Source: a virus | Virus record (IMG/VR): IMGVR_UViG_3300020178_000002 | Coordinates: 186,001 to 250,000 of that record | Length of the DNA stretch: 64,000 nt | Direction: 5' to 3' (one strand) | Notes under the pieces: model-generated | What the model was told of the DNA's origin: nothing | The model's database searches: none | What the model saw: only the letters and a program-made list of their open reading frames with translations | Made by a program: the position numbers and the translations under genes | Shown: positions 7,521 to 46,282 of the stretch, in pieces | Layout: each line of letters opens with the position of its first letter | Position numbering within the stretch: position 1 is the first letter of the stretch

Positions 7521-7937
7521 TTAAAATTCCTTATCAAAAATAGGTCGGACATTAGGTCTGGGGTATTTTAGTTTGATCTCTGCCTTCACAGGAAGGTAGT
7601 CTCCTACAGAGAGTTTATCGAAAAGAAGGTATGCCCTGTTATATTCTTCGTAAAACCATTTTTGGATTTTCTTTTTCCCTCTGACTTCACTTACAACAAC
7701 AGACACAAGTGTTTCATCATCATGTATAAAATAAACGAATCCCCCAGCCTCTCCTCTTTTGACACCATTTATAAGAGGCTCTATTAAACCCACTGTTTTG
7801 AAATCAAGCATAAGACCATCCCAATTTTTAGATTGGGGTTTTTTTGCCAAAGCTCTCGCCTTGTCTTTAGCCCTACTATTTGATTGTCTCTCAAGACTAG
7901 CAACTCTAATTTCGAGATTCTTTAATATTTCTCTCAT
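7521..7937 (-). CDS. Hypothetical protein with N-terminal LExRVASLER tag
   Basis: Starts MREILKNLEIRVASLERQS, the N-terminal helical tag found on unrelated proteins at 27293, 39808, 42144, 42613 and 45908. After a basic linker (about residues 20-38) comes a compact alpha/beta domain with many beta strands (FVYFIHDDETLVSVVVSEV). No family recognised. ATG overlaps the previous stop (ATGA), so it is translationally coupled to the membrane protein at 7934-8278. The tag may target it to the virion; the role of the domain is unknown. Confidence 0.7.
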   Translation of the reverse strand: MREILKNLEIRVASLERQSNSRAKDKARALAKKPQSKNWDGLMLDFKTVGLIEPLINGVKRGEAGGFVYFIHDDETLVSVVVSEVRGKKKIQKWFYEEYNRAYLLFDKLSVGDYLPVKAEIKLKYPRPNVRPIFDKEF

Positions 7938-8278
7938 AATGTACCATCAAAGTCTTCATCTGGCTCTGGTTGACCTAAAGGTTTGGTTGGACTTTTAGGT
8001 GCAGGTGGTTTACCTCCACTGTTTTGCTCAAGAGCTGTTGTTGCTACATGAGTGTATTTGTCTAATGCTGCTTGACCTAATATATAGCCAATCTGTATGA
8101 AGCCACTTGTGACTATCATGGTAACTAGAACCATAAAGGCATAATGGTCAATTTGGGTTTTATATTCCCAGACAACATAAAACATGAGGATCTTCCAACC
8201 GATGTCTGCAATCAGATAGGCTAGGAACTTCTTGCTTTTAAGGGGGAGCTTCATTACATCTTCAACTTCTTTATTCAT
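7934..8278 (-). CDS. Small membrane protein with two likely transmembrane segments
   Basis: Two hydrophobic stretches (about residues 13-35, FLAYLIADIGWKILMFYVVW, and 47-67, FMVLVTMIVTSGFIQIGYIL) are separated by a short charged loop, followed by a proline-rich acidic tail (KPPAPKSPTKPLGQPEPDED). This topology would put both ends on one side of the inner membrane. It sits in an overlapping chain of three genes (7934-9088) that all look membrane-linked. A holin-like or envelope role is possible, but nothing in the sequence proves it and no lysis enzyme is nearby. Confidence 0.7.
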   Translation of the reverse strand: MNKEVEDVMKLPLKSKKFLAYLIADIGWKILMFYVVWEYKTQIDHYAFMVLVTMIVTSGFIQIGYILGQAALDKYTHVATTALEQNSGGKPPAPKSPTKPLGQPEPDEDFDGTL

Positions 8279-8628
8279 AATCTCACCTTCAACTTAGATT
8301 TAGGGTTGCTTTGGTTTGCTTGCTGGTTAATTAAGTTTCGATTAGGGTTTCGAATTGCCAGCTTGTTCATAGATTTTTGGAAGTCATCTTCAACAGCTTG
8401 GTCATACTTTTGAGGTGCTCTGCTGAATGCATATATTTCATTCAGCCTTTCCTGCTCAAGTTCAGTCATTGAGGGCAAGAGAGCTAAGAAATCATCTCTT
8501 GCTTTCTGGTTACCATCAGAAAGAAATTCCATGATGAGGTATGCAGGCAATATAGGAGGGTTATCAGGGTCTCCCTCTATACCCTTAAGGGTATTAACCC
8601 CTGTTTTTCTTATCCAATAATTCATCAC
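8275..8628 (-). CDS. Hypothetical protein, 117 aa
   Basis: Overlaps both neighbours: 35 bases with the upstream coiled-coil membrane gene and ATGA with the downstream one. The protein is mostly helical (AYLIMEFLSDGNQKARDDFL; MTELEQERLNEIYAFSR) with a disordered Asn/Gln-rich basic tail. No domain recognised. Tight overlap suggests it works with, or in fixed ratio to, the adjacent membrane proteins. Confidence 0.65.
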   Translation of the reverse strand: MMNYWIRKTGVNTLKGIEGDPDNPPILPAYLIMEFLSDGNQKARDDFLALLPSMTELEQERLNEIYAFSRAPQKYDQAVEDDFQKSMNKLAIRNPNRNLINQQANQSNPKSKLKVRL

Positions 8629-9088
8629 CAGACTCTTTTTCTTTCTTAGATTTTGGAATCCACTCTGCTACTACACCTTTAAGTTCCACATCTTCCTCTG
8701 TCTTTGTCTTAATAACCCCACCATAGTTGACAAAGACAGAGAGCTTCTCAATAACAGCAGTCTGGAGTTCAAAGATTTGTTCCCGAAGCATTTGCATTTG
8801 GATCTGGGCATCTCTTAACCTTCCAATAAGTGCTTCTCTATCTGCATTTGCTTTTGCCAGCTTATCCTTCAAATCTTCAACTTCAGAAGGATCACGACCA
8901 GATGCAATAGCCATCATTGATGAAATAGAGCCTGTGATAACACCCAAGATACCAACAAGGACATCTCTATTTTGATCAACAATCTGCACATAGCTTAGGA
9001 AAACTATAAGCATAACTACTATAACTAAAAAGAATACAGAGAACCACCATCCTCTTTTGACTTTCAAATCTTCTTTATTGTCATTCAT
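8594..9088 (-). CDS. Membrane-anchored coiled-coil protein
   Basis: A basic N-terminus is followed by a strong transmembrane segment (residues 14-34, WWFSVFFLVIVVMLIVFLSY) and a second weaker hydrophobic stretch (44-64, VGILGVITGSISSMMAIASG). A heptad-rich coiled coil runs from about 68 to 125 (EDLKDKLAKANADREALIGR onward), ending with a charged tail. This is a phage-type bitopic protein; some spanins and tail-associated membrane proteins look like this, but I cannot assign it. It is first in the overlapping membrane gene chain and lies just downstream of the nucleotidyl cyclase gene. Confidence 0.7.
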   Translation of the reverse strand: MNDNKEDLKVKRGWWFSVFFLVIVVMLIVFLSYVQIVDQNRDVLVGILGVITGSISSMMAIASGRDPSEVEDLKDKLAKANADREALIGRLRDAQIQMQMLREQIFELQTAVIEKLSVFVNYGGVIKTKTEEDVELKGVVAEWIPKSKKEKESGDELLDKKNRG

Positions 9089-9103
9089 GCCTAAACTCTT
9101 TTC

Positions 9104-9958
9104 TCAAGACGCTATTGTCTTGCTGAAAGCTTCTTTAATCATCTCAATAAAAAAAGAGATATAGTCCACCCACCAAAAATAATGGTCTACTCCCCATAGT
9201 TTTCGAGCACTTGGGTTGCTTAGGAATGGATACACCAATGCAATCATATATATAAGGTTTATGACAGCAAGTCTCTGCATAACCCACCACAGGTGTTCTT
9301 TTAACTTCCTATCTCTCATCCTGCTTTTAATTTTTCTTGGGCCACCTATCCTCTTTACTTTTTCAGAAGATGGGGGAGGCTGTAAAGACTCAATAGTTTT
9401 TCCCACAGCGTATACCTCTTGTGGTTCTCTTACACCCTTAAACCTATACAAGCCAACACAAACATACCTTGTTCCTTTAGGAAGAATTCCATTGATACGC
9501 TTTCTTAAATTAATAACGGCTTCTTTTGTTAAAAGAATCTGCTTTGCTTGACATAAGCTCATAGTACGAGCAGCTATGTTTTTTGATAAGCCTTCCAACT
9601 CCACTCTTTTAGCACCAGCACCTACAAACAGGTCATCTTGTTTAACTTCAACAATCTTTCCCCAGTGGATACCTATTCTACTGTTAAGATTCAATTTGGC
9701 AGGTATCATATCTTGATATGCCAGAGCGAAATTTACAGCATCTATAGTCCTCTCAAAAGAAAGTAGAAAGCCATCAGACCTATCAATCTCTCTTCCTTGA
9801 TACTTATAAACTAGAGATCTTGTCATTCGGTCATGTACTTGAAACCATTGAGCAGCGACATGAGCACCATTTTTTTGAACAAAAGCAGTAGACCCTATTA
9901 TATCTAACAAGACTATAGCTAAATATCTTTCTTTCATGTCTACTGTAATAGGTCTCAT
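9104..9958 (-). CDS. Class III nucleotidyl (adenylate/guanylate) cyclase with C-terminal membrane segments
   Basis: Residues 10-185 form a class III cyclase catalytic domain that would make cAMP, cGMP or another cyclic nucleotide from an NTP. Seen: the first metal aspartate in LLDIIGST (D19); the second in REIDRSDGFLLSF (D62); a conserved RIGIHWG strand (94-100); and GLSKNIAARTMSL, which supplies the transition-state Asn127 and Arg131. The motif GAKRVELEGL resembles a bacterial cyclase subfamily, from memory. After a basic linker come two hydrophobic stretches (about 226-247 and 262-280) likely to anchor the protein in a membrane. Substrate specificity cannot be read: the usual purine-specifying Lys is not obvious. 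It lies between a lipoprotein gene and a membrane gene cluster in a leftward block. Confidence 0.85.
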   Translation of the reverse strand: MRPITVDMKERYLAIVLLDIIGSTAFVQKNGAHVAAQWFQVHDRMTRSLVYKYQGREIDRSDGFLLSFERTIDAVNFALAYQDMIPAKLNLNSRIGIHWGKIVEVKQDDLFVGAGAKRVELEGLSKNIAARTMSLCQAKQILLTKEAVINLRKRINGILPKGTRYVCVGLYRFKGVREPQEVYAVGKTIESLQPPPSSEKVKRIGGPRKIKSRMRDRKLKEHLWWVMQRLAVINLIYMIALVYPFLSNPSARKLWGVDHYFWWVDYISFFIEMIKEAFSKTIAS

Positions 9959-9962
9959 CAGT

Positions 9963-10166
9963 CTACTCCCACATATCTCTTATTTCATCACAGGGAGTAT
10001 TTAAAACTTCGTTGGCATTCTTAATGGTGCATTTAATCAAACGAGGTCTAAAGCCTAAGCAACTTTCAATATGATCTAAAGCTTGGTCGCAAGGGCTTCT
10101 ATAAGAATCTGTATTTAAACTTCCTTCACAGGACAACAATAATAGGGATATAAGTATCTTTCGCAT
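9963..10166 (-). CDS. Small cysteine-rich lipoprotein
   Basis: I chose the ATG at 10166 because GAGGAG lies six bases upstream. The N-terminus MRKILISLLLLSCEGS is a short lipoprotein signal with lipobox LLSC, so Cys13 should be lipidated. The mature 55 residues carry four further Cys (SPCDQ, ESCLG, IKCTI, TPCDE), consistent with two disulfides in the periplasm. An outer-membrane anchored role fits the presence of the DUF481 barrel nearby. It could be a spanin-like or exclusion lipoprotein; that is inference. It is five bases from the cyclase gene. Confidence 0.75.
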   Translation of the reverse strand: MRKILISLLLLSCEGSLNTDSYRSPCDQALDHIESCLGFRPRLIKCTIKNANEVLNTPCDEIRDMWE

Positions 10167-10176
10167 CCTAAGCTCC

Positions 10177-10497
10177 TCACACTGATATGAAAGCAAATTC
10201 TTGCTCTTTGACGATCTCTAAAGGAGAAGTTGGGTCTCTTTGAATAACCCATCTTATTCGATAACTGCCAGGTATGAAGCCTGCTGAAAGTCTTTCTGAA
10301 ACATAATAGATGCCAGCTTGATCTTGAAAAGGTATTCTATTTCCCAGACCTACTCTCCACTCTCCCCTGATAGGGTCTTTCCCATAGAACTCGTAATAAA
10401 TAAGATGAGGTTCAAAAGGATTACCTAATTGGTCAAATAGGATAATGGTTAGGTCATTTGGGCCTAGTTGCTGGCCTTGTGTGAAGACAACAGACAT
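10177..10497 (-). CDS. Probable virion protein, beta-sandwich type
   Basis: A 106-residue all-beta protein (VVFTQGQQL, LTIILFDQLGNPFEPHLIYY, AGIYYVSERLSAGFIPGSYR), reading like an Ig- or Big-fold domain of the kind found on phage particle surfaces: a G-x-Y-x-v motif near the end of the fold and a proline-rich turn. One base separates it from the similar gene upstream. Structural role is inferred from fold pattern and neighbours. Confidence 0.65.
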   Translation of the reverse strand: MSVVFTQGQQLGPNDLTIILFDQLGNPFEPHLIYYEFYGKDPIRGEWRVGLGNRIPFQDQAGIYYVSERLSAGFIPGSYRIRWVIQRDPTSPLEIVKEQEFAFISV

Positions 10498-10498
10498 A

Positions 10499-10852: not shown

Positions 10853-10877
10853 TAGACCTCCTTTTTAGAAGTCTAAT

Positions 10878-10894
10878 GATATAATAACTATTAA
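10878..10894 (-). promoter_or_regulatory. Candidate promoter upstream of the Ig-like gene pair
   Basis: Minus-strand TTAATAGTTATTATATC, 25-42 bases before the 10852 start. It closely resembles TCTAATAGTTGTTTTATATC upstream of 13522. Identified by similarity only. Confidence 0.35.
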
Positions 10895-10898
10895 CCGA

Positions 10899-11150: not shown

Positions 11151-11153
11151 AGT

Positions 11154-12071: not shown

Positions 12072-12089
12072 AATTTATTCTCCTTTATA

Positions 12090-15997: not shown

Positions 15998-18900
15998 ATG
16001 AAAAATCTAAGTCTGAGACCTGAGATCGAGTTATTTAAATTCTACCTAGCCATATATGGTTTTAAAAGAAAAGGGGGTTCTGAAAGAACTTTAAAAGCTG
16101 GAGCTGATTTATTGAAGAGAAGAACTGACATCAGAAACAATATTATAAAGTCTATTGTTTCGCCTCTTACAGAAGATGTACAGGTTTTTAAAACACTCCC
16201 TAACGTATTAAGAAATAGATTAAGAGGTTCGGCTGGGTCAGAGGAACAAGCTGTTGGCTTAGGTGAAATATTTTATAGTATCTGTTTATACTACTCAAGC
16301 AGAACAACCAAGGTAAAAGAAACCCTCACAGACTCAAAAGAGAGGGGCTATTTTCTGTCTGCTCTCCAAGCCTGTTCTAAAGAAGGTGTTTCACTAAATA
16401 TCTTAATGGGAGACAACCTAAAGGACAAGAGACTTAAGAAATGGGTTGAGAAAGCAAGTGTTGAAGTTAAAGAGTCTACACTTACAGAAGTAAAGGTAAA
16501 TCAACTTAAAGAAATTGAGACTATCTCTAAAGCAATTAAACTTATAGAGAGCAGAATAAAGTCTCCTGATACAACAGACATTGAAAGAATTTCTTTACTT
16601 AAGGAAAAAGAAAAGAGGATGCAATCGCTAGAATCTGCAACTGAAAAAATGGGAGAGGATTCTCCAGCAGCTCTTGCGGTTGTGACTTCTATCTTGAGTA
16701 AGAAATCTGACCACTTAACAGATACAGGTAAAAAGCAAGGTCTGAGCACCGAACAAGAAGACGTTCTTGTTTCAAAGGGAGAGCTAGAAGTTTCTGCTGG
16801 TGCAGGCTCGGGTAAAACTAAAGTGATTGCTAGTAAGGTAGCTTACACAATCCAAGAATTAAATGTCCCATCTGATAAAATGATTGTAGTGTCTTCAACA
16901 AAAGAAAGTTCAGATAACCTAAGAGAAAAGGTTATAAGCTACAGTGGTGCTAATTCAACAGGAAGATTTGTTGGGGTCACCCCAGAGTCCGTTGCATTCA
17001 GTATTCTTGATGAATCTGGTTATTTAAGAGACAAGAACCTTATTTTAGAAGAAGACTTGAGCGAGTGGGTGGATGCATCCATTGAGCAAGTAAGACAGGG
17101 CGAAGGCTCTGAAGCACCTGTAAAGCAAGCAATGTTAAGGAAAGCTTCTATTGGAGAAGATCCAAGACTAAAACCTCTCCTTATTAAAGTTGCAAGAGTC
17201 ATTGCTGAAAAGGCATATCTAACAGAAGCCCCTAATCTCCTGTCCTTAGTTTCTCCTGCTGTTAAAGAAATTTCAGATGGTGAGATTAAGCTTGCTGATG
17301 GCTCAGACTCTATATGGGATGATTTGAACTTTAGGTCTTCTATAAATGATTATATCTCTACCTCTCAAGGAAAAGAAATTCTCAAGTCTGCAAAACCATA
17401 CTCTCAGTTTAGTAGGTTTGCATCTATAGGTTCTAAACCACCTAAGTTAGCTTCTGGTAGGAATGAATGGTTTAACTTAGGTTTTGACCCTATGAGCAAT
17501 GTTTCTAAACCCAATACAAATGAGATGAAAAAGTATATCCTCCAGAAGCAAAAGCAAATGGTATCTGCTTCTGACCTCTGGGCTAAGAGAGATAAAAACC
17601 CACCTCTATCTATCAATCAACTCGAAAAGAGAATTGAAGAAGATATGAAGATAGCGACTTATGGTGCTTTTGAATATCTTAAGAAAGAACAAGGGTCTGT
17701 GGATAGGAGAGATTATGCATTACTTGCAAGTCAAGCTTTGATTGACAATCCTAAGATCTTGGAAAAGATGAATGAAAAGTATTCTCATATCTTTATAGAC
17801 GAAGCTCAGGATTTAAGTAAATCTGAAAAGACTATGTTTGACTTAATCGCAGGCTCTTTAGACCCTAAGACCTTAACTCCCAAAACAGCTTCTGCTGAAA
17901 GCTATTTGTTAATAGGTGACTCTAACCAAAAGAATACTAAAACTGCAAGTGAAGCCAAAAAAGCTGTTCTTACTACTAACTATAGGTCAAGACTGAATAT
18001 AGTAGAAGCAGCTAATAATATCATATCTCCAAGTCTCTTGAGTTGTGAAGCTAGTCCTTACAAAGATGGTGGAGAGATCTACTACAAGATATGTGAGGAA
18101 GGTCTTAGTCCAGGTAAAGAAGAAATAACTCAAGAGATCAAGCAAAAAGTTGAGTTTGAGGGTTGGGTTCACGACAATGAAAACCACAAGTTTGGAATTG
18201 TATGTAGATCCGAAAAAGAAGTAGTAGGGTATGCTTTAGAACTGATGATCAACAAAGTATCTTGTAGTACCAAACATGATATTTTAGATACAGGTTCTGT
18301 TAATGCTCTCACACATATTCTTGGCATAAAGTCTAACAACCCTCTTACTCAATATAAGTCTGTTTGTAATATACACAAATACTTAGACTTTAACCTGCCT
18401 GAAGACTTCAACGACTACCTTAACCCAGAGGGCGAAAGTGTATTAGATGCCCTCTTAAATGAAAGCTTTGCTTTCTCTAAGAGTAAAGAAGTGAAAAGCT
18501 ATGTAGATTACTTAATGAAAGTAATTGAGTATGAAGGAGATTTAGAAAGTCTTTTAGAGTATCTGGCTTTTGAAATCAAAGATGCAGATGACGAAGAGCT
18601 TTTCAAAAAGAATCTTTTAACAAAAGAGGAAAAGCTCTTTTTAGAGAAAGAAGCAATGGGAGAAAAAGTTAGCTCTTATGAGAAGCTTGAATACTTAAAG
18701 TCTGGTTTAGGATTAGTTGCTAGAATCTTCTCAGAGAAAGATTGGATGATTGAAGAAGGTCTTGATTATATGGAGAGCATGAAGAAAGTTTCTAAAATGT
18801 CTTCAAAAGAAAGAGACTTAAATAGAGTCTTAATCAGAACTTGTGAGCAGTGGAAAGGCTTAGAGTGTAGAGATATTTATGTTTCTATGACTCCCACAAG

Positions 18901-19123
18901 ATTCCCTAGAATAGGCTTAGATCTTCAAGGTGAAGAAAAGCTGGGTTATTTAGCTATCACAAGAGGGCAGGACAAAGTTAAAGTCCTTTGTGGAGGAGAC
19001 ACACCTTACTTAGTAGAGAAAGCCTGTTTACTCTCAGAAGAAGAATTCTTAAATAAAACCTCTCAACCAAAGAGTGCAAGCTTTGTTGATGCTATGACTC
19101 TTTGGTTAGAGGAGAATCAGTGA
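15998..19123 (+). CDS. UvrD/Rep-like superfamily 1A DNA helicase, 1041 aa
   Basis: An ATP-dependent 3'-5' type helicase by family. Seen: Q-motif region LSTEQEDVLV; Walker A AGAGSGKT (267-274); motif II DEAQD (601-605); motif III/IV LTTNYRSRLNIVEAANNI; and motif V/VI elements EQWKGLECRDIYVS and YLAITRGQDKVKV. All core motifs are present. Compared with UvrD/PcrA (about 720 residues) it has an N-terminal extension of about 240 residues that is helical and unassigned. It is a lone plus-strand gene whose 3' end overlaps the convergent Rad50-like gene by 7 bases. It likely acts in replication or recombination with the nearby RecA-like and Rad50-like proteins. Confidence 0.92.
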   Translation: MKNLSLRPEIELFKFYLAIYGFKRKGGSERTLKAGADLLKRRTDIRNNIIKSIVSPLTEDVQVFKTLPNVLRNRLRGSAGSEEQAVGLGEIFYSICLYYSSRTTKVKETLTDSKERGYFLSALQACSKEGVSLNILMGDNLKDKRLKKWVEKASVEVKESTLTEVKVNQLKEIETISKAIKLIESRIKSPDTTDIERISLLKEKEKRMQSLESATEKMGEDSPAALAVVTSILSKKSDHLTDTGKKQGLSTEQEDVLVSKGELEVSAGAGSGKTKVIASKVAYTIQELNVPSDKMIVVSSTKESSDNLREKVISYSGANSTGRFVGVTPESVAFSILDESGYLRDKNLILEEDLSEWVDASIEQVRQGEGSEAPVKQAMLRKASIGEDPRLKPLLIKVARVIAEKAYLTEAPNLLSLVSPAVKEISDGEIKLADGSDSIWDDLNFRSSINDYISTSQGKEILKSAKPYSQFSRFASIGSKPPKLASGRNEWFNLGFDPMSNVSKPNTNEMKKYILQKQKQMVSASDLWAKRDKNPPLSINQLEKRIEEDMKIATYGAFEYLKKEQGSVDRRDYALLASQALIDNPKILEKMNEKYSHIFIDEAQDLSKSEKTMFDLIAGSLDPKTLTPKTASAESYLLIGDSNQKNTKTASEAKKAVLTTNYRSRLNIVEAANNIISPSLLSCEASPYKDGGEIYYKICEEGLSPGKEEITQEIKQKVEFEGWVHDNENHKFGIVCRSEKEVVGYALELMINKVSCSTKHDILDTGSVNALTHILGIKSNNPLTQYKSVCNIHKYLDFNLPEDFNDYLNPEGESVLDALLNESFAFSKSKEVKSYVDYLMKVIEYEGDLESLLEYLAFEIKDADDEELFKKNLLTKEEKLFLEKEAMGEKVSSYEKLEYLKSGLGLVARIFSEKDWMIEEGLDYMESMKKVSKMSSKERDLNRVLIRTCEQWKGLECRDIYVSMTPTRFPRIGLDLQGEEKLGYLAITRGQDKVKVLCGGDTPYLVEKACLLSEEEFLNKTSQPKSASFVDAMTLWLEENQ

Positions 19124-26547: not shown

Positions 26548-27300
26548 ATGTCAACAGATTTTCAAAACAACAGAGTCAACATTTATAATGATAACATCGG
26601 GGGTGTCTCTCTTATCCAAAGTATGGGAGATGATCTTACCATCGTAAACGCTGCAAGGGCTTCTTTAGATAAAGTAAGTACAGAATGGTCAGACAGAGAA
26701 GAAAGATTATCCAGCTTCCTCATCAGAGAAGGCCATACCTCTACCACAGAACACAATGTTTTAACATTCTGGATTAAAGTTCCTATGTTTGTTGCTCGTC
26801 AACAAATGAGACACAGAACATTCTCTTACAATGAAATATCTCGCAGATACACTTCAGATAAGATCGAGTTTTATTACCCACAAGAAATGAGAATGCAGGA
26901 CACTAAGAACAGACAAGCGAGTCTCGATGAGACTTTCAACCCTGTGATTGAGTTCGATCCTTACGACCACCCACAGTTCTTAAAGCTGGACAGTGTATCT
27001 GCTATCAAGAACCATGTAAAAGAGTCTGTGAAGCTCTATGACAAGATGATTGATAAAGGGATTGCTAGAGAGCAGGCTAGAATGATCTTGCCACAAAACC
27101 TATATACAACCTATTGGGCTACAGGTTCATTGCACAACTGGGTGAATAGCTTTGTTGCTAAAAGAGACCACCCAGATGCTCAATGGGAGATTAAACTACT
27201 AGCTAGAGAAATCAGTAGACAGATTCAAGCTCTCTGGCCTAAGGCACATGAGAACTTTGTTAAGCATGGAAAGATTCCAGACCTTAACTCCCCTATTTAG
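26548..27300 (+). CDS. thyX: Flavin-dependent thymidylate synthase ThyX
   Basis: Makes dTMP from dUMP using FAD, methylene-tetrahydrofolate and NADPH. The signature RHRTFSYNEISRRY (88-101) is the ThyX motif (RHRxxSxNExSxRY). It is preceded by TTEHNVLTFWIKVPMFVARQ, the usual substrate-side helix, and followed by AREQARMILPQNLYTTYWAT, which includes the conserved Arg and hydrophobic segment of the dUMP site. Length 250 is normal for the family. SD AAAGGA precedes the ATG. The 3' end overlaps the convergent gene by 8 bases. It complements the window's ribonucleotide reductase, dNK and MazG genes in dNTP supply. Confidence 0.96.
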   Translation: MSTDFQNNRVNIYNDNIGGVSLIQSMGDDLTIVNAARASLDKVSTEWSDREERLSSFLIREGHTSTTEHNVLTFWIKVPMFVARQQMRHRTFSYNEISRRYTSDKIEFYYPQEMRMQDTKNRQASLDETFNPVIEFDPYDHPQFLKLDSVSAIKNHVKESVKLYDKMIDKGIAREQARMILPQNLYTTYWATGSLHNWVNSFVAKRDHPDAQWEIKLLAREISRQIQALWPKAHENFVKHGKIPDLNSPI

Positions 27301-27961
27301 AGTAAATAAACTCACCATCCTCCATTGCATTAGGAAGAGTGTCTACAAGAATTTCAATCACTTTTTGTTTAAATCCTGTACTCATTCTTGATGGAAGGTC
27401 TGGGTCTTTTCTTTTTCTCAGGTTAAATGTCCAAACCCTAAGAAGCTCTTCAGCGTACCACTTTTTCTGGTCTAAAGAAGTAATAGGTTTTCTTCTTAAT
27501 ATTCTATCAAGGCTTTCAAGACCTCCCTTGTCAAGAATCAATTGAGCAACTTCTTGAGGGGTCTTCTTAACTACAGGTACTTTAGGAGCTTTTCGTATCC
27601 TACCCTTAGTTATCTTAACTTTGCCTGATTTCTTGAAATACGTTAAAGTTGCCTTGAAAGTTGGCTTGAAGACGGTTTTGCTGAAAACAAAAACAACCTT
27701 TACCTGAGTTGGCTTGTTAAGTGCTTCTAAGATATCATAATGACTGACATTCAACATATTTGCGTATGTGTGGAGAAGCGTTCCCTCTATATCTTCAACA
27801 ACATCTAAATAAACTGTGTCTACGACACCTGGCTGATCAACAATCCATTGTGCAATGTCCTCGAGAGTAGCTTTCTCCATAGGAAGCTGAAACCCTGATT
27901 TCTTCTCAAGGCTAGATGTTCTGGTTTCTAATTCTGCTATTTTTTCTTGTATTGTTTTCAT
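27293..27961 (-). CDS. Hypothetical protein with N-terminal LExRTSSLEKK tag
   Basis: Begins MKTIQEKIAELETRTSSLEK, the N-terminal helical tag shared with unrelated proteins in this window. The body is helical and basic with two domains of about 90 residues joined by a Lys/Pro/Val-rich linker (RKAPKVPVVKK). VFVFSKTVFKPTFKATLTYF suggests a beta-rich part in the first domain. No recognised family. If the tag is a virion signal, this would be an internal virion protein; that is inference. Confidence 0.65.
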   Translation of the reverse strand: MKTIQEKIAELETRTSSLEKKSGFQLPMEKATLEDIAQWIVDQPGVVDTVYLDVVEDIEGTLLHTYANMLNVSHYDILEALNKPTQVKVVFVFSKTVFKPTFKATLTYFKKSGKVKITKGRIRKAPKVPVVKKTPQEVAQLILDKGGLESLDRILRRKPITSLDQKKWYAEELLRVWTFNLRKRKDPDLPSRMSTGFKQKVIEILVDTLPNAMEDGEFIYSK

Positions 27962-38146: not shown

Positions 38147-38899
38147 ATGGAACAGAAAATTGCTTGTGAAGCCATTGTAGAGGCAATTAAGAAAGACAAT
38201 GCTCGTAAAGGGTCGAAGAGGAAAAAAGTAGACCATTGGAAAAAGGCTGCTTGTGCTTCTTTAGAAATCAAGAAGATGGGCAATGCAAGATGGACAGCGA
38301 TCTTGGAGTATGGCTATAAGAACCAATACTTCAAAAAAGATATGTATGGAGATAAAGAGATTCTCTCTCTTGCTGATAAAGCTCCTATTCTGGACTTCTT
38401 ATCTTCTGAGAAGCCTATTGTAGAAGAACCTAAACCACCTGCTAATGAGAAAAGAGATTCTAAGGGATATAAGCCCTCAGATTATCTTTCAGGGAATATT
38501 CTCAAGACTTCTGCCACTAGACCTAAATCTATCAAAGAAAACAGCCACAGAGCAGATTACGCACCCAGAGAGGGTGATCTTATGTGGGCTATCTATCCAG
38601 ATGGAAAATTAGTCCATGTTGAAATCCAAGAGGTCAGCTTTGGGCTTCATGTAGTACCTATGAACAAAAAAGATGGTCATTGGAGCTACCTTACCTCAAA
38701 TGATGTATTTGAAGATAAAGACTCTGCAAAGAATGCCCAGAGCGAGAGAGTTATATCCAGAGACAAAAAAGGTATCTATTGGTCAAAAGACGCAATGGGT
38801 CAGGAAGAATATGCCTTGTTCAAAGAGTATGAGGAACACAGGGAAGAGTTTAAAAGATTTTTAGAAAGTAAGAGCAATGAATCTAACGAAAATAGTTAA
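38147..38899 (+). CDS. Hypothetical protein, 250 aa
   Basis: SD AAAGGA lies about seven bases before the ATG. N-terminal 90 residues: basic helical (AIKKDNARKGSKRKKVDHWK). Residues about 140-205 look like a small beta barrel (REGDLMWAIYPDGKLVHVEI) similar in style to Tudor/SH3-like modules. The C-terminus is a charged helix. No family recognised. Overlaps the next gene by 23 bases. Confidence 0.6.
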   Translation: MEQKIACEAIVEAIKKDNARKGSKRKKVDHWKKAACASLEIKKMGNARWTAILEYGYKNQYFKKDMYGDKEILSLADKAPILDFLSSEKPIVEEPKPPANEKRDSKGYKPSDYLSGNILKTSATRPKSIKENSHRADYAPREGDLMWAIYPDGKLVHVEIQEVSFGLHVVPMNKKDGHWSYLTSNDVFEDKDSAKNAQSERVISRDKKGIYWSKDAMGQEEYALFKEYEEHREEFKRFLESKSNESNENS

Positions 38900-39329
38900 T
38901 GGTAAAAGGTCTATAAAGAAACTACCTCATTGGTATTGTCTTCAAAAAAGCACTCCAGAAAGCTGGTTTGAAAGGTGGATTACTTTCACCTGCCATTTAA
39001 TGGTAGAGCTTGGGTTTAAAGTTCAAAAAGATACAGGAACTGTAAAGTTAAAAGGTATTGGATATAGTCAATACGTTATTTTTGAACACAAAGATATAGG
39101 AGAACTCTCTTTCTATTTTGAAAGGAAAAGAGTTCAAGAAGGTGGGATTATCACCATTAAAGACGTTATTAATGCAGGAGATGATTTTACCATTGAGGTA
39201 GAAATTAACACAGTCGCTAATTGTAAACTAAACCCTAATTCTTCCCCATACATGAGCAGGATAGATGTGGGAAGTTCAATGATTGAGACAATCAGAAAAT
39301 TTTGGATAGAAAAGTCAAAAAAGCAATGA
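38877..39329 (+). CDS. Tandem duplicate family protein, copy 1
   Basis: Paralogous to the next gene. Shared: IVNGKRSIKKLP, WY, KSTPExWFERW, FEHKxIG, ERKRxQxGG and a C-terminal PYMSRxDVG. The first ~45 bases of both genes are almost identical (38890-38935 versus 39339-39384), implying recent duplication or ongoing gene conversion. Protein of 150 residues, alpha/beta, not recognised. The start lies inside the previous gene; it is supported by the homologous start of copy 2. Confidence 0.65.
   Translation: MNLTKIVNGKRSIKKLPHWYCLQKSTPESWFERWITFTCHLMVELGFKVQKDTGTVKLKGIGYSQYVIFEHKDIGELSFYFERKRVQEGGIITIKDVINAGDDFTIEVEINTVANCKLNPNSSPYMSRIDVGSSMIETIRKFWIEKSKKQ
38890..38935. repeat. Near-identical DNA repeat, copy A (copy B at 39339-39384)
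   Basis: The 5' ends of the two paralogous genes share about 46 bases with only two differences (both near the 3' end of the block), far more alike than the rest of the genes. Marks a recent duplication or recombination site. Confidence 0.7.
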
Positions 39330-39769
39330 ATATAACGGAAATAGTTAATGGTAAAAGGTCTATAAAGAAACTGCCTCGTTGGTACTCCTGTAATAAAAGT
39401 ACCCCAGAAAGATGGTTTGAAAGGTGGGCTAAATTCACTGATGATTTAATGATAGAGCTTGGATTTGAATCCTTACAAGATTCAGACATTATGAAGTTTG
39501 GTAAAGGCAAGGCATGGAGCAGAGTTCTTAATTTTGAACATAAAGAAATAGGCTCAATTGAAATCACTCTTGAAAGAAAGAGGTCTCAAGATGGAGGATT
39601 GATCATCGTTAGGAACACAGCCATACCAACAGATGGTGCTGTTGAGGTAGATATTAACACAGTCCTCAAGAATCCATCTATTAACCACAACAATCCCTAT
39701 ATGAGTAGGGTAGATGTTGGAAATGCAATAATCAGCTCTATTAGACTCATCTGGCGAAAAAACCAATAA
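39326..39769 (+). CDS. Tandem duplicate family protein, copy 2
   Basis: The ATG overlaps the stop of copy 1 (ATGA), giving a start aligned with copy 1; a longer frame from 39302 is less likely. 147 residues, about half identical to copy 1 by eye, with diverged centre (DIMKFGKGKAWSRVLNFEHK). Unknown function. Conserved Trp/Arg residues (WFERW) suggest a shared fold and ligand surface. Confidence 0.65.
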   Translation: MNITEIVNGKRSIKKLPRWYSCNKSTPERWFERWAKFTDDLMIELGFESLQDSDIMKFGKGKAWSRVLNFEHKEIGSIEITLERKRSQDGGLIIVRNTAIPTDGAVEVDINTVLKNPSINHNNPYMSRVDVGNAIISSIRLIWRKNQ

Positions 39770-39807: not shown

Positions 39808-40434
39808 TTAGATCTTTGTAAGAAGAAGCCTCTCAAAGTGGAGTCTGTCTCCTCTGTTTAGTTTCTGCTCAAGCAGGTTCTTTATCTGCTTCTCAGTCAG
39901 AGCTTCTTGATTCTCTATCTTTCTTAAATTCTTTGCTTTAGAGAAGTCGCAGTTGTCGAATCGACCAGAGATAAGCCTAACACCTGTGAAGTCTGTCATC
40001 CAGAATGTAGTGTTCCTGAAAACACAACTTGCAAAGATACTGTTCTTTAGAGAGCCTTTAGAGTAATGAACACCTATGAACTGACATTGGAGAAAGTCAC
40101 AGTTAATGAAATAGTTGTCTTTAAAACGCTGGCTTATGAACTTTACTTTTTCAAAGCTCTTGCCATCAATTTTCAGTCCTATATTTTCTTCTGCTTCATA
40201 TTCTTTATTTGAGAATGAATCAGTAAGAGCTATTTCTTGTTTCTTTTCTAATTTAGACAAGGCTGCATCGAATTCTTCTTTAGTAATCTTACCTCCCATG
40301 TAGATTTTATTTAGAAATTTATACTCTCTATAAAAAACCTTATCCATTTCTTTTTCCAATTGGTTGAATGGGATTGAAGATGCTTTTTCAAGTCTGGCGA
40401 TTCTGATCTCAAGGGATTGTATTTTATCTTTCAT
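39808..40434 (-). CDS. Pentapeptide-like protein with LEIRIARLEKA tag, copy 1
   Basis: N-terminus MKDKIQSLEIRIARLEKASS is the N-terminal tag. Residues about 95-165 carry pentapeptide-like repeats (FINCDFLQCQFIGVHYSKGS; FASCVFRNTTFWMTDFTGVR; FDNCDFSKAKNL). The last 30 residues (LLEQKLNRGDRLHFERLLLT) are nearly identical to those of the next gene upstream. Beta-helix fold inferred; ligand unknown. Confidence 0.75.
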   Translation of the reverse strand: MKDKIQSLEIRIARLEKASSIPFNQLEKEMDKVFYREYKFLNKIYMGGKITKEEFDAALSKLEKKQEIALTDSFSNKEYEAEENIGLKIDGKSFEKVKFISQRFKDNYFINCDFLQCQFIGVHYSKGSLKNSIFASCVFRNTTFWMTDFTGVRLISGRFDNCDFSKAKNLRKIENQEALTEKQIKNLLEQKLNRGDRLHFERLLLTKI

Positions 40435-40476
40435 CTTGTTTCTTTCTAAGTTTAGAATACAAAAAAATATAGGGTC

Positions 40477-41127
40477 TTAGATCTTTGTAAGAAGAAGCTT
40501 CTCAAAGTGGAGTCTGTCTCCTCTACTAAGTTCCTGGTCAAGCAAATTACTTATCTGTTTATTAGATAATACGTCTTTATTTAATAGTTTTAAATTCCTT
40601 GCTTTTCTAAGGTCGCATCTCTCAAATCTGACTGATTGAAGTCTAGCACCCTTAAAGTCTGTCATGTAAGCTGTGTAGTCTTTAAAAACACAAGCTAAAA
40701 TAAAAGAATCTACGAAAGACCCTTTAGAATCGGATGTTTGATAAAAATTACATTCAGACAAAATACAGTTTAAGAAATGAGTATTCTTAAGTCGCATTCT
40801 TCTAAATGTGACCTTTTCAAGATCTGATCCCTCAAACAGATTATTTGTAAACTTGCCACCTTCAAATTCATAATTTTTGATGTCATGCTTCCCTGTCACA
40901 CCACCGATAGAGTCATCCATATTCTCAAGATAGTCATGAGAATAATATTTCGTAGAATCCAAATAGTAATCATCTTCCCTAGTCAAATCATAGAAGGTCT
41001 GCTCCTTTGGGATCTTCTTATTGTACTGTTTCCTGATTATCTTTCTTAGTTCCATTTCGTCCTTTGATGGCTTCCTGTATTTATATTCATTGAGATTATA
41101 TGGGAGTGGATATTTATTTTTTGACAT
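40477..41127 (-). CDS. Pentapeptide-like protein, copy 2
   Basis: I chose the ATG at 41127 (MSKNKYPLPYNLNEY); the frame is open to 41205, but the extra part is hydrophobic and lies in the terminator region. The central repeats are FEGSDLEKVTFRRMRLKNTH, FLNCILSECNFYQ and ARLQSVRFERCDLRKARNLK. The C-terminus LLDQELSRGDRLHFEKLLLT matches copy 1 with conservative changes. The N-terminal part is unrelated to copy 1 and lacks the LEIRIARLE tag. Part of a small beta-helix family with 35883 and 39808. Confidence 0.7.
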   Translation of the reverse strand: MSKNKYPLPYNLNEYKYRKPSKDEMELRKIIRKQYNKKIPKEQTFYDLTREDDYYLDSTKYYSHDYLENMDDSIGGVTGKHDIKNYEFEGGKFTNNLFEGSDLEKVTFRRMRLKNTHFLNCILSECNFYQTSDSKGSFVDSFILACVFKDYTAYMTDFKGARLQSVRFERCDLRKARNLKLLNKDVLSNKQISNLLDQELSRGDRLHFEKLLLTKI

Positions 41128-42143: not shown

Positions 42144-42611
42144 CTAAGAGAAATAATCAAATACCTTGAGGATGAGTTGCTTTAATTTCAAGAAGCCACC
42201 AAAGATAGACTTAAAAATAGTCTGCAAGAAAATAACTACAACAGCTAAAGTAGCAATAGCTAACATAGTAATCTCAGGCAAGTAGTATCCTATTGCAACT
42301 AAGTCAAAGTCAGAGAGTGGAGCTGCTACTTTGGTTTTATGGCTATCTAAAATATATTCAATCTGATTTACAGGGTTTGAACCAGCTTTGGCTTTAACCA
42401 TTTTAAGATACTTTTTAAAACCAGAAGATCGAGTGACTGATGGGAAGTGCTTAAGGATATTCTTCTTTCCTGCACTATGAAATACATCTGAGACTCTTTC
42501 TTTAATCCTCACAAACTTTTTAAAGTGTTTTGAAGTGATTAAATCTATCTCAAGCATTGCCACCTTGTCCTCAAGGATAGCGATTTTCTCTGATGCTGTT
42601 AAGATCTTCAT
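42144..42611 (-). CDS. Membrane protein with N-terminal EKIAILEDKVAMLE tag, paralogue of the next gene
   Basis: I chose the ATG at 42611 (GGAAG seven bases upstream); an upstream Met lies within the neighbour. Starts MKILTASEKIAILEDKVAML, the N-terminal helix tag. Homologous to 42613-43167: both have FKK, GSNPVxQ and a hydrophobic segment (YYLPEITMLAIATLAVVVIF). The C-terminus is a basic amphipathic helix. Likely an inner-membrane or membrane-active virion protein. Confidence 0.7.
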   Translation of the reverse strand: MKILTASEKIAILEDKVAMLEIDLITSKHFKKFVRIKERVSDVFHSAGKKNILKHFPSVTRSSGFKKYLKMVKAKAGSNPVNQIEYILDSHKTKVAAPLSDFDLVAIGYYLPEITMLAIATLAVVVIFLQTIFKSIFGGFLKLKQLILKVFDYFS

Positions 42612-42612
42612 G

Positions 42613-43167
42613 TTAGCTTCCAGACTTGCCCATGAACCAGCCAACAATAAATGTCACTAAACTCATCCAGAAAGCAGTTCCAATTGAGACATCAAAGAAA
42701 GCTTCTTTGTTTTGAGAACCTAGCTTCTTAATACCTGTCACATTAAGCACCCATACAACAATAGAACCTACAAGAAGGCAAGCAACAATAAGAATCTCTG
42801 GGTTTAAAATAAACTCCATCAAGTCAAAGCTTACACGATTCATTGAAGCCATTCTTCTCTGAGCGTTATTTCTCTCTTCAAGAATAAACTTAACTTGCTT
42901 TACAGGATTAGAACCTACTTCCTTACGAAGTGCAGCTAAAGCTTTTTTAAACTCAGGTGTCTTTGAAACACGACCATACTCTTTTGCAACTCTTTTTGGA
43001 CCGCCTGCTTTCTTGAAAACTTGACCTACTTTACTTTGAACACCTTTGAAAGCTTGAAGGCCTTCTGAAACCTGTTGTCTCATTTCATCAAGAATGGCTT
43101 GCTTTTCAAGTTGAGCAACTCTGTTCTCAAGAATTGCAATTTTCTCTGATGCCGTTAAATGTCTCAT
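42613..43167 (-). CDS. Membrane protein with N-terminal ILENRVAQLEKQA tag
   Basis: MRHLTASEKIAILENRVAQL is again the N-terminal tag. Helical body (KVGQVFKKAGGPKRVAKEYG; KKALAALRKEVGSNPVKQ), then two transmembrane segments (ILIVACLLVGSIVVWVLNVT and GTAFWMSLVTFIVGWFMG). Paralogue of the gene downstream, with one base between stop and start. Candidate promoter at 43207-43223. The pair could be ejected membrane proteins or inner-membrane proteins; not decided here. Confidence 0.7.
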   Translation of the reverse strand: MRHLTASEKIAILENRVAQLEKQAILDEMRQQVSEGLQAFKGVQSKVGQVFKKAGGPKRVAKEYGRVSKTPEFKKALAALRKEVGSNPVKQVKFILEERNNAQRRMASMNRVSFDLMEFILNPEILIVACLLVGSIVVWVLNVTGIKKLGSQNKEAFFDVSIGTAFWMSLVTFIVGWFMGKSGS

Positions 43168-43206
43168 TGCTTTTTCCTTTTGTTAAAGATTATAAAGGAC
43201 AGCGTA

Positions 43207-43223
43207 GGTATAAATAGACTATA
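43207..43223 (-). promoter_or_regulatory. Candidate promoter of the paralogous membrane gene pair
   Basis: Minus-strand TATAGTCTATTTATACC, 40-56 bases before 43167, the same core as 47089 and 39787. On the plus strand it reads TATAAATAGACTATA and could also serve the divergent dNK gene, resembling a T4-like late TATAAATA box. Direction is unresolved. Confidence 0.4.
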
Positions 43224-43252
43224 AACGTAATATATTTTAAACAGGAGGCTGC

Positions 43253-43825
43253 ATGAGAGTTATTGTAGAGGGGTTGATTGGAGTAGGCAAAAGCACATTC
43301 ACAACGGAGTTTGCAAGAATACATAAGCTAAACCCAATGTATGAGTCTGTTGATGATAATCCTTTTCTCTCAAAGTTCTATTCAGACCCAGAGAGATGGG
43401 CTTACACTCTTCAAATGCATTTCCTCTACGACAGATACTCAAAGCACCTTCCAGAGAACATCATCTTAGACAGGTCTATCTGGGGTGACCTTTGCTTTGC
43501 AAACATACTAAGAGAAGATGGTACTCTGACAGAAGAAGAGTATGAGTCTTATTTGAGCCATTCAAAAGTTTTAACAAACCATGTCCCTAAAGTAGACTTG
43601 TGTATACACCTTGATGTACCTGTCTATAAAGCAATGGACAGGATTAGTAAAAGGGGGAGAGGTTTTGAGACTTCTATTTCAGAAGATTACTTGGTTAGGC
43701 TCAAGAAAGAAATAGACTCACTCCCCTCTTTCTTACCCTCTGACATTAAGTATGTTAAAATTGATTGGGAAGACATGAGCCTAGATGAAATATCTAGATA
43801 TATTTCAAATATAGATTTAAAATAA
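43253..43825 (+). CDS. Deoxynucleoside kinase
   Basis: Phosphorylates a deoxynucleoside to its monophosphate, feeding dNTP synthesis. Seen: P-loop EGLIGVGKST (6-15), LDRSIWGD (the ERS/DRS substrate motif), and the LID/Arg region RISKRGRGFE. Length 190 matches bacterial/phage dNK (about 200-220). SD AGGAGG precedes the ATG. Its 3' end overlaps the opposing methyltransferase-locus frame by 9 bases. Specificity (dA/dG/dC/T) cannot be read. Confidence 0.9.
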   Translation: MRVIVEGLIGVGKSTFTTEFARIHKLNPMYESVDDNPFLSKFYSDPERWAYTLQMHFLYDRYSKHLPENIILDRSIWGDLCFANILREDGTLTEEEYESYLSHSKVLTNHVPKVDLCIHLDVPVYKAMDRISKRGRGFETSISEDYLVRLKKEIDSLPSFLPSDIKYVKIDWEDMSLDEISRYISNIDLK

Positions 43826-45355
43826 GGATACTTGACCTTTCTCATCTAGCTTTAGTCTTTCTTCTTTATATATTTCGCAGCTATTTTCGTTTACTTGTTC
43901 CCTTAAGTTTGAAGGTGCTGATCTGCCTTTCCTCGTTGTATTCGCTTGTCTTCTTAGTGCTTCATCAGACCTTAAAGGTAAGGAATCCATAGTGTTAGGG
44001 GTTGCCCATATAGATTCCTCTATATCTACACCCCTCTCCTCAGCTTCAACTTGAACCTGTAGAGTAGGTGCGAAGGTCTCTTTGCCCTGCTCTAAGCGAC
44101 TCTTCATTCTTGAGATATAATGACGTAGGTTCTCACCCCTCTGTGAAGCTGGAGGAGTTGACCAATTCTCTCCATAAATCAACGAAGGCTCTTCTTGCAG
44201 TATCTGGAACAACTCCATTTCCAAGCATTCTGAGCTCATCCGTTCTATTATCAAAGGACTCGTACAGCTTGGTTGCACCCACCCTATTGGAAGCCCCATC
44301 AAGGTCTCTACCCACCTCGGGTTCAACTTCATTGCAGCGTCCTTGCCCATGCTCACACGATCTGCGAAGTTCAGAGAGTGTGACTCCCCCACCCCTTTCG
44401 CTTTCCTTCGACCCGTCATTGTCAGAGTTATCTCTTTGTGGTGTATTTCCTGCGTTGTTGGAGTTGGCCACCCATATAAAGGGATGCTCGCTTCCTTCTC
44501 TTGAGTCTCCTTCAGGAGATCCTGATATATCTCTATTGCGTGAGGGTTCACCTGCTCCCGTAGATTGCCTGGATGGGAGCGTCTTTTCCTCCCCCCTGCT
44601 CTTGCTAGTCTTCTCAATGCCTCGTCGCTCCTCTGGTCTAGATGATCGAGAGTATTGGGAGTCCCCCAGAGTGACTCTTGGAGGCTCCCATGAGTATTGG
44701 TCTCTTCCTCTTGAGGATGGGTATATAGAGCCACTTGTGTCTCGGTTTCGGTCAAGGAGTCCATTGACCCATTCCAAGCTTTCTCTTTCGGTACCTCTTT
44801 TAATACCAAGAATGAAGACTCGCTTCCTTCTATGTGGAGCACCGACTTCTCTCGCTGAGAATATACCTGCCGTTGCTTCGTAACCCACCCTCTCCAATTC
44901 TCTAAGAACATGGAGCAAAACCGATGTTCCTTTTGGATCTGACCAATCATCTGATTTGAGTTCTGCTGAGAGGATTCCTTCGACATTCTCAAGGAAAATA
45001 ACGGAAGGTTGAGATACTTTAACTCCTCTGATGATATGTGGGAAGAGGTGTCTTGGGTCTGAGTCTGCTTTTCTTTTTCCTGCTGAACTAAAGGGCTGAC
45101 AAGGGAAGCCTCCTGACAAGATATCCACTTTTCCACGAAAGATTTCCCAGTCGAGGGTTTTAAGATTCGACCAGATAGGTGCTGGCTCAATAAACCCTTT
45201 TTCCATCTTTGCAACCAAGTTGCAGATTGGGAAGCTTTCGATCTCCACATAAGTGATTGTTCTGACATCTCCGAGAGCTTTTTTAAGTCCGATGTCGATT
45301 CCCCCATAACCTGCACAGAGTGATAGGTGTTTAAGTTCTTTGGTACTATCCACAT
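43817..45355 (-). CDS. Second long frame through the cytosine methyltransferase gene, with MTase-associated motifs
   Basis: Frame open for 512 codons, overlapping all of dcm (44133-45353) in the +1 frame and running 316 bases past its stop. It starts ATG at 45355, six bases from AGGAG. It holds motifs I recall from phage C5-methyltransferase-linked proteins: YGWPTPTTQ and LNPRWVETLMGLPIGW, read from the same bases as EPEVGRDLDGASNRV in the dcm frame. Two copies of a block WxTPNTxDxLxxRSDEALRR...NLREQVN...EIY occur, one inside the overlap and one (SIWATPNTMDSLPLRSDEAL) mostly beyond it, which argues for selection on this frame. It could be a separate protein or the C-terminus of a frameshift product. 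The first ~170 codons look less protein-like. Confidence 0.6.
   Translation of the reverse strand: MWIVPKNLNTYHSVQVMGESTSDLKKLSEMSEQSLMWRSKASQSATWLQRWKKGLLSQHLSGRILKPSTGKSFVEKWISCQEASLVSPLVQQEKEKQTQTQDTSSHISSEELKYLNLPLFSLRMSKESSQQNSNQMIGQIQKEHRFCSMFLENWRGWVTKQRQVYSQREKSVLHIEGSESSFLVLKEVPKEKAWNGSMDSLTETETQVALYTHPQEEETNTHGSLQESLWGTPNTLDHLDQRSDEALRRLARAGGRKRRSHPGNLREQVNPHAIEIYQDLLKETQEKEASIPLYGWPTPTTQEIHHKEITLTMTGRRKAKGVGESHSLNFADRVSMGKDAAMKLNPRWVETLMGLPIGWVQPSCTSPLIIERMSSECLEMELFQILQEEPSLIYGENWSTPPASQRGENLRHYISRMKSRLEQGKETFAPTLQVQVEAEERGVDIEESIWATPNTMDSLPLRSDEALRRQANTTRKGRSAPSNLREQVNENSCEIYKEERLKLDEKGQVSLF
44133..45353 (-). CDS. dcm: DNA (cytosine-5) methyltransferase, 406 aa
   Basis: C5 methyltransferase transferring a methyl from S-adenosylmethionine to cytosine, probably for protection against restriction. 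Motif I LSLCAGYGGIDIGLKKAL, motif IV GGFPCQPFSSAGKR with catalytic Cys, motif VI ENVEG, motif VIII RRKRVFILG, and C-terminal motif IX/X region ELRMLGNGVVPDTARRAFVD are all present. Between VIII and X is a long hydrophilic variable region (residues ~205-370), the target-recognition segment, rich in Arg/Ser/Glu. GTG start eight bases from AGGAG; an ATG two bases earlier opens the other frame. Length is normal. The variable region is shared with the overlapping 43817-45355 frame. Confidence 0.93.
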   Translation of the reverse strand: MDSTKELKHLSLCAGYGGIDIGLKKALGDVRTITYVEIESFPICNLVAKMEKGFIEPAPIWSNLKTLDWEIFRGKVDILSGGFPCQPFSSAGKRKADSDPRHLFPHIIRGVKVSQPSVIFLENVEGILSAELKSDDWSDPKGTSVLLHVLRELERVGYEATAGIFSAREVGAPHRRKRVFILGIKRGTERESLEWVNGLLDRNRDTSGSIYPSSRGRDQYSWEPPRVTLGDSQYSRSSRPEERRGIEKTSKSRGEEKTLPSRQSTGAGEPSRNRDISGSPEGDSREGSEHPFIWVANSNNAGNTPQRDNSDNDGSKESERGGGVTLSELRRSCEHGQGRCNEVEPEVGRDLDGASNRVGATKLYESFDNRTDELRMLGNGVVPDTARRAFVDLWRELVNSSSFTEG

Positions 45356-45411
45356 TAATTTCTCCTATAATAACATGCTACACTTATATATTATACCTAA
45401 ACCCCCCAGAC

Positions 45412-45452
45412 AAAAAAGCCCCACTTCCCAGTTAAGGGAAGCAGGGCTTAAA
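45412..45452 (-). terminator. Terminator between the small 45477 gene and dcm
   Basis: Leftward RNA folds AAGCCCTGCTTCCC with GGGAAGTGGGGCTT (two mismatches) around a short loop, then U6. It separates the 98-residue gene from the methyltransferase, which therefore needs its own promoter. Confidence 0.75.
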
Positions 45453-45476
45453 AAGATACCAACATAGAACTTTTAA

Positions 45477-45773
45477 TTAGTTTGTTGGAGGACTTGTTCT
45501 CTTACACTTTTTATGGAAGTCAATGCTGTGGTATGACTCTCCATTAGATAGTGTCCATCTCTTCTTTGAAGTGTTTTTTGCTGTCTGGACTCCATCAATG
45601 CCTTCACAAATGTATGTTTTGTGCTCTTGCATCTCTGATACAGAAGCAACACACAAGTACATCATGAAGAAGCCAATGAGGAGTCTAATATCATCTCTTA
45701 AAAGACCATACATAAAGGTCGCAAGAGACATTAGGAAGAACACACAAAAAATAATTGTCTGACCATCTTTCAT
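45477..45773 (-). CDS. Small membrane protein, 98 aa
   Basis: Two hydrophobic helices (IIFCVFFLMSLATFMYGLL and IRLLIGFFMMYLCVASV) are followed by a soluble tail with Cys (KTYICEGIDGVQTAKNTSKK). The YICEG element also occurs in the protein at 15104. Topology suggests an inner-membrane protein with a tail of about 50 residues. Unknown family. Its own terminator follows. Confidence 0.65.
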   Translation of the reverse strand: MKDGQTIIFCVFFLMSLATFMYGLLRDDIRLLIGFFMMYLCVASVSEMQEHKTYICEGIDGVQTAKNTSKKRWTLSNGESYHSIDFHKKCKRTSPPTN

Positions 45774-45907
45774 TTTAAAAACCTTTCTTAATAATTTAAT
45801 CTACTTAAAGTTATCTGTCCAGAGAGGGGGGGTGAAAAAACTTAACCTCCGCTTGCTGGTAATAAGGCTATTATCTAAAAAATGAAGAAATTGTTAAAAA
45901 TCTTATG

Positions 45908-46282
45908 CTAGCCATTCCATTCAAAATTAAAGAATGGGCTATGGAACATCCCTTTAACTTTCCATTCCAGAAGCCAGCTTTCGTCAAGCCTATCTGAATA
46001 TATTTTTATAGGCTCTTTGTTTTTAATAGCTCTAGCAAACTCATTTTTCTTGACATAGAGCTTCTCATTCTTAGTGACCCTAGTAGGTACACCCGTGCCT
46101 CCTAATGGTCTTAGAAGCAAGTTTGTTGTATTTGGGAAATAAACCCCATCCCCCATATTTTTTCTAAGGAATGTTCTAATGTGCTTGTACCTGAAGTACG
46201 CTTTGTTTTTATTCCCACCAAAGAAAAAAGCTTGCTTCTCTAATCTGGCAATACGACTTTCAAGGTTTGCGATGCTGTCCAT
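45908..46282 (-). CDS. Hypothetical protein with ESRIARLEKQAF tag
   Basis: I chose the ATG at 46282 because GAGGAGAG lies just upstream; a start at 46306 adds eight residues. Begins MDSIANLESRIARLEKQAFF. The rest, about 100 residues, is basic and beta-rich (YFRYKHIRTFLRKNMGDGVY). No family recognised. Another bearer of the N-terminal helical tag on an otherwise unrelated body. Confidence 0.65.
   Translation of the reverse strand: MDSIANLESRIARLEKQAFFFGGNKNKAYFRYKHIRTFLRKNMGDGVYFPNTTNLLLRPLGGTGVPTRVTKNEKLYVKKNEFARAIKNKEPIKIYSDRLDESWLLEWKVKGMFHSPFFNFEWNG

Follow-up and report, generated by a model that had tools for sequence, protein, structure and literature searches.

An N-terminal helix tag on unrelated proteins of a giant uncultured phage as a probable capsid-targeting propeptide

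The question raised by this locus is why proteins with unrelated bodies begin with nearly the same short helix. The window, that is the whole stretch of 64,000 nucleotides which was analysed, comprises bases 186,001-250,000 of a 312,136-base IMG/VR virus record and belongs to a giant uncultured phage, a virus of bacteria. A sequence-only reading had claimed six N-terminal motifs in the window, on proteins whose bodies do not resemble each other except for the pair at 42611 and 43167. All six motifs are present at the N-termini named, on the minus strand and 6-12 residues past the start codon. The bodies are unrelated as claimed, and the two proteins of the pair share 28% identity (E 2e-10). 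The tags and the features next to them are the following.

7881-7937, minus strand: tag MREILKNLEIRVASLERQS, N-terminus of a 138-aa protein (7521-7937); profile E 1.8e-7
27896-27961, minus strand: tag MKTIQEKIAELETRTSSLEKKS of a 222-aa protein (27293-27961); profile E 6.8e-11
40375-40434, minus strand: tag MKDKIQSLEIRIARLEKASS of a 208-aa pentapeptide-repeat protein (39808-40434); profile E 1.8e-9
40477-41127, minus strand: untagged pentapeptide-repeat paralogue, adjoining the tagged 39808-40434 protein and 44% identical to it over 156 aa
42543-42611, minus strand: diverged tag MKILTASEKIAILEDKVAMLEID of a 155-aa protein (42144-42611) with a predicted TM segment; profile E 8e-9
43096-43167, minus strand: tag MRHLTASEKIAILENRVAQLEKQA of a 184-aa protein (42613-43167) with two predicted TM segments; profile E 4.5e-12
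43217-43225, minus strand: TTTATAGTC element upstream of the 43167 gene, a late promoter candidate whose TTTATAG core also precedes other tagged genes and the decoration/MCP unit
46229-46282, minus strand: tag MDSIANLESRIARLEKQA of a 124-aa protein (45908-46282); profile E 8.9e-10

The coordinate 42611 corresponds to an ATG codon, and the longest reading of the same ORF begins at 42647 with TTG. The diverged tag at this position is without the [KR]xA[SG] ending. The 39808-40434 protein matches PF13599 (E 8.9e-14). Pentapeptide-repeat proteins are numerous in the genome of this phage (G000) and mostly untagged (window 39808-41127; L008, L009, L006, L003, L011 and L007).

The tag is a helix-forming segment of about 18-27 residues with the consensus M-[RK]-[RK]-[ST]-A-S-E-[IV]-I-R-N-LExRIARLE-[KR]-x-[AS]-[SAG]. 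Its heptad core reads I-xx-L-E-x-R-[IV]-A-R-L-E. The information profile shows near-invariant L/E/R/A/L/E residues and falls to background past position +12. Two flavours of the tag are present, SA(S/Q)xIxRN.. and TAS(E/Q)KIA.., the latter frequently borne by proteins for which TM segments are predicted (7/10 vs 9/108). The whole-genome motif search that had been asked for earlier was run, and it revealed 27 clear tagged proteins, so that the original six were an undercount. These are the matches at E < 2e-6 of a profile of 21 tags across the 312-kb record, about one fifth of which was covered by the profile search alone. The clear matches coincide with usable gene starts, and their LExRxAxLE core comes 6-12 residues past the start codon. 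Diverged copies at genome positions 26,818, 171,055 and 10,246 bring the phage total to about 30. The copy at L014:3055-3525 (genome 171055-171525), directly after the sheath gene, carries the diverged tag LFLRVAKLEAAS; this form is possibly ancestral, and a similar helix is found on a few G005 and G008 proteins. The motif strings were not found in the literature searched, which consisted of open-access papers.

The motif is built of common helix residues, and random coiled-coil composition had been named beforehand as the explanation that would refute the proposal. This was tested in several ways. When an HMM was trained on just the six window tags, it recovered, among 1,890 ORFs, at least 20 more tags lying outside the window (E < 1.3e-3), each of them at a usable gene start. 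In the opposite direction, an HMM trained solely on tags from outside the window ranked the six window tags as the top six of 515 window ORFs (E 8e-11 to 0.016; the seventh had E = 1). With the same HMM, reversed or shuffled proteins gave best matches of only E >= 0.84. The six control genomes phiKZ, T4, RaK2, phage G, Tunturi_5 and LR745208 contained no tag match at E <= 0.5. Among the proteins called here, the loose core L..[RK][IVL][AKSQ].[LI] was counted 24 times within the first 30 residues, where the internal rate predicts about 1.5, a 16-fold enrichment; the motif is almost absent from other parts of proteins. Chance composition is refuted by the N-terminal enrichment, the empty control genomes and the reversed and shuffled controls, and we give it practically no weight. 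The synonymous codons at the fixed residues vary, which shows that the constraint acts on the protein and not on the DNA; a DNA-level element within the tag was ruled out on this ground.

A motif that is not due to chance could still have been inherited together with its bodies. When the 118 distinct tagged proteins of the phage and its metagenomic relatives are grouped by body, 84 clusters result, and the 29 from this phage alone give 22. The clustering was performed by BLAST/phmmer on simple gene calls, so very distant body homology could escape it. Most tagged bodies gave no family match; pentapeptide repeats, WGR and JmjC/cupin domains are among the exceptions. The largest tagged paralogue family has 7 members in this genome and 11 overall, and its AlphaFold model (pLDDT 57) is too poor to use. 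A 445-residue ORF in L218 (G040:C1:22500-24300), also found in G033, is a fusion of three cargo proteins. In the G040 frame, the order is tag, body, partial tag, second body, full internal tag and third body, and the bodies differ. A reading by shared descent only would make the tagged proteins ancient paralogues whose bodies diverged past recognition while an ordinary N-terminus was kept, and the paralogue family and the homologous 42611/43167 pair do agree with it. It is nevertheless very improbable, since recognisably different folds are found among the bodies, untagged paralogues exist and tags are fused in tandem within one ORF. Shared descent would account for the origin of the tags, but not for the conservation of the N-terminus alone. 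A single diverged paralogue family as the whole explanation is ruled out by the body clusters, the differing folds, the untagged paralogues and the tandem fusion. A second shared N-terminus, TE[IV]VNGKR, was considered as another tag and rejected, as it looks like one diverged small family. The small proteins with the N-terminus T[EK][IV]VNGKR (window 38877-39769, plus strand; L005:1797-2829; L013:5051-5404) seem likelier to be diverged paralogues than bearers of a second tag.

A short N-terminal peptide is common to proteins with unrelated mature parts, as in the capsid-targeting sequence (CTS) of phage T4. The internal proteins of T4 carry N-terminal propeptides of 10-19 residues, which direct them to the scaffold core and which the head protease cuts off (PMC9026906). 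The CTS of IPI, IPII and IPIII (Mullaney & Black) is likewise a short N-terminal peptide on unrelated mature parts, near a protease site. The bodies of T4 internal proteins differ between relatives, and Ip1, Ip2 and Ip3 inhibit type IV restriction enzymes (PMC12373910). We propose that the tag described here is likely to be an N-terminal, cleavable capsid-targeting propeptide, carried by about 28 proteins with about 20 unrelated bodies. The parallel with the T4 CTS, as a tag for prohead targeting and/or a protease mark, had been drawn in the sequence-only reading; it is supported computationally by the modularity described above, by [KR]x[AS][SAG] endings and by gene placement.

The phage genome contains tail sheath, baseplate, UvsX, clamp loader and helicase genes. 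The MCP is homologous to gp27 of Bacillus phage G (PDB 6wkk, E 6.3e-63), which indicates a phage G-type head; its identity is 38% to phage G, 47% to Tunturiibacter phage Tunturi_5 (tblastn) and 89% to the uncultured huge phage LR745208. A putative head maturation protease gene lies in the head cluster. It is assigned by one PHROG match (phrog_18299, E 1.6e-16) and by synteny, its counterpart being Tunturi_5 gp331; the gene order around the protease and the MCP is identical to that of Tunturi_5. Pfam and PDB sequence searches with this protein gave no protease match, and its AlphaFold model (pLDDT 50.6), which is too poor, gave no structural match. Pfam Peptidase_S77 (PF03420) found nothing in the phage genome, nor did the T4 portal profile (PF07230), in a search run without a positive control. 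No near relative of the window was found in INPHARED by megablast and one tblastn, and genome_contigs gave matches in two MAG contigs only. In IMG/VR, 516 stretches encode MCP relatives; the best 80 of 516 were kept, all of them 91-100% identical. In the window itself, the ribonucleotide reductase large subunit ORF (54638-57391, plus strand) is split by a likely intein, which contains a LAGLIDADG domain.

The number of tags differs strongly among the relatives. The MCP-bearing relatives carry 31, 14, 12, 12, 10, 7, 5, 5 and 1 tags, and three have none. Twelve of the 18 smaller MCP-bearing contigs have 1-6 tags and six have none, and ten contigs recruited by the tag DNA pattern carry 4-14 tags each. 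The close relatives G005, G008, G012 and LR745208 are without the expanded tag set. A de novo search for a different recurrent tag in G005, G008 and G012 yielded none, apart from a few diverged versions of the core already described.

If the tag is removed during head maturation, a recognisable site is expected near its end. The motif [KR]x[AS][SAG] immediately follows the tag in 44/117 proteins (0.62 expected) and lies within 15 residues of it in 75/117, compared with 6% of other 15-residue stretches; the strict form [KR]xAS is found within 15 residues in only 28/117, and neither form follows the tag at 42611. The same strict motif is enriched in head-assembly proteins. In comparison with same-composition shuffles, it occurs 36 times (3.8 expected) in four homologues of the scaffold-like protein, sequences which are homologous and of low complexity, and 11 times (1.1 expected) in the head protease. 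The scaffold of this phage alone contains 6 copies (0.63 expected, p = 5e-4), and the tagged bodies contain 36 (11.5 expected). Related motifs are conserved at defined positions: R[VI]ASG in the N-terminal region of the protease, where A27 and S28 are invariant in 11 homologues, IS[KR]xAS in the C-terminal region of the scaffold and KLAAS in the N-terminal region of the MCP of relatives. In most of the 11 members of the largest tagged family, [KR]xAS is located about 22 residues from the C-terminus, much as it is near the scaffold C-terminus. This distribution is what a common prohead processing enzyme would produce, and cleavage would then take place at [KR]xA[SG]. A UvrD-like helicase of the window (15998-19123, plus strand) contains six [KR]xAS motifs (0.9 expected, p 5e-4) and might be a protease substrate or head-associated.

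The tagged genes are scattered over the genome. A dense array at 146-158 kb adjoins the sheath/head cluster (168-182 kb), which is directly followed by two further tagged genes at 183-184 kb. In G003, two tagged genes are located about 8 kb upstream of the MCP, within the head region. The weakly tagged gene at genome position 26818 adjoins baseplate genes. The element TTTATAG is found upstream of 7/24 tagged genes and 10/230 others; the p value of 3e-4 is optimistic and this line is weak, since the element was selected for its enrichment upstream of tagged genes. TTTATAG also precedes the decoration/MCP unit.

These observations bear on two further explanations. The tag might be a general oligomerisation helix, by which the tagged proteins associate with each other inside the infected cell, as coiled-coil bundles or one common complex, and have nothing to do with the head. 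The core is indeed an amphipathic helix of 2-3 heptads, the A3 model shows it as helical with low confidence, and the two flavours, with the second preferring predicted-TM proteins, would fit such a role. Oligomerisation leaves unexplained, however, why the tagged proteins have the [KR]x[AS][SAG] ending in common with head-assembly proteins, why [KR]xAS recurs near the C-terminus of the main tagged family, why an upstream element is shared with the decoration/MCP unit and why the tag keeps a near-fixed N-terminal position; this reading is regarded as unlikely. Alternatively, the tag could be a sorting signal to another site of the infected cell, such as the membrane, a replication compartment or the tail/baseplate, instead of the prohead. 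The predicted TM segments of some tagged proteins and the baseplate neighbourhood of the gene at 26818 point in this direction. A sorting signal would not predict the link to a protease site, TM segments are predicted for only a minority of the tagged proteins, the genes of the tagged proteins are scattered and the densest gene cluster adjoins the sheath/head genes; this explanation is more doubtful still than oligomerisation.

A capsid-targeting propeptide of the T4 type would be expected to bind the scaffold core, and a candidate dock is offered by the scaffold-like protein (L014:10170-11819; genome 178170-179819). This protein has long acidic repeats, and its length is strongly variable among relatives. 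In tag-rich relatives, the variable acidic protein retains the helix LAEEIATLKAANARLARKVRKLA, whose heptad core positions are I, L, N, L, V and L and resemble a leucine zipper. In relatives without the tag set, the zipper is diverged (G005, G012) or absent (G008, LR745208), and it is missing from some contigs with 2-3 tags (L063, L067, L069). A strict zipper-tag link was therefore not upheld, because the zipper is absent from some tagged contigs and present in diverged form in tag-free ones; phylogeny may confound the association. The scaffold zipper as a dock for the tag is plausible.

According to the proposed mechanism, the tag helix would dock on the scaffold core during head assembly, possibly on the zipper-like helix, and would in this way carry its cargo into the prohead. 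The tag would then be cut off by the head maturation protease, acting at [KR]xA[SG]-type sites. The freed cargo would share the head with the DNA and would probably enter the host cell alongside it, like the T4 internal proteins. It is plausible that the cargo includes anti-defence, takeover and membrane proteins. A more far-reaching and tentative idea, to which we give slightly less than an even chance, is that of a cargo-loading code. Dozens of interchangeable proteins would be loaded via one docking helix matched to the scaffold zipper, and new cargo would be acquired by tag fusion, even as protease-cut poly-cargo ORFs. The flavours would serve cargo classes such as membrane proteins.

The proposed system resembles known ones in part. 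As in T4, a phage with a scaffold and a head protease carries a candidate cargo repertoire that differs among relatives, and as T4 Alt is cut at both ends, so may be the largest tagged family. The T4 CTS has no sequence similarity to the tag (no match in the T4 genome, E <= 0.5) and is not its homologue. Furthermore, the candidate site [KR]xA[SG] differs from the LxE/IxE-type site of T4 gp21, and the cargo set per genome is far larger here; the likeness in working is read from sequence alone. In phage P1, DarB has an N-terminal targeting sequence of less than 30 residues, and there is no consensus among the Dar proteins (PMC9024508). The N-terminal 30 residues of DarB suffice to carry a reporter into the head, and the cargo is anti-restriction. 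Unlike the Dar N-termini, about 28 proteins share one consensus here. In the giant phages SPN3US and phiKZ, head and ejection proteins have N-terminal propeptides cut by the head protease (PMC10052503, PMC5694885). The propeptides cut from SPN3US head proteins are mostly long (PMC10052503), 111-254 aa in most cases and 20-24 in two, and are not a shared tag; the sites reported are of another type (e.g. E-124, ARE-12). Bacillus phage G and Tunturi_5 have a homologous MCP, and Tunturi_5 also the same head gene order, but neither has the tag.

If the proposal is true, a 24-position profile reads the head cargo of widespread uncultured jumbo phages from sequence alone. It would bring together, in one testable class, 118 candidates for injection; these proteins form 84 body clusters, and most of them are without a known domain. 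Since T4 internal proteins inhibit type IV restriction enzymes, the tagged cargo is worth searching for anti-defence proteins not yet described. For the loading of foreign proteins into phage particles, such a short tag would be a new tool, and one taken from a phage with no relation to T4 or P1. For the phage itself, it would mean that dozens of helper proteins could reach the host together with the viral DNA.
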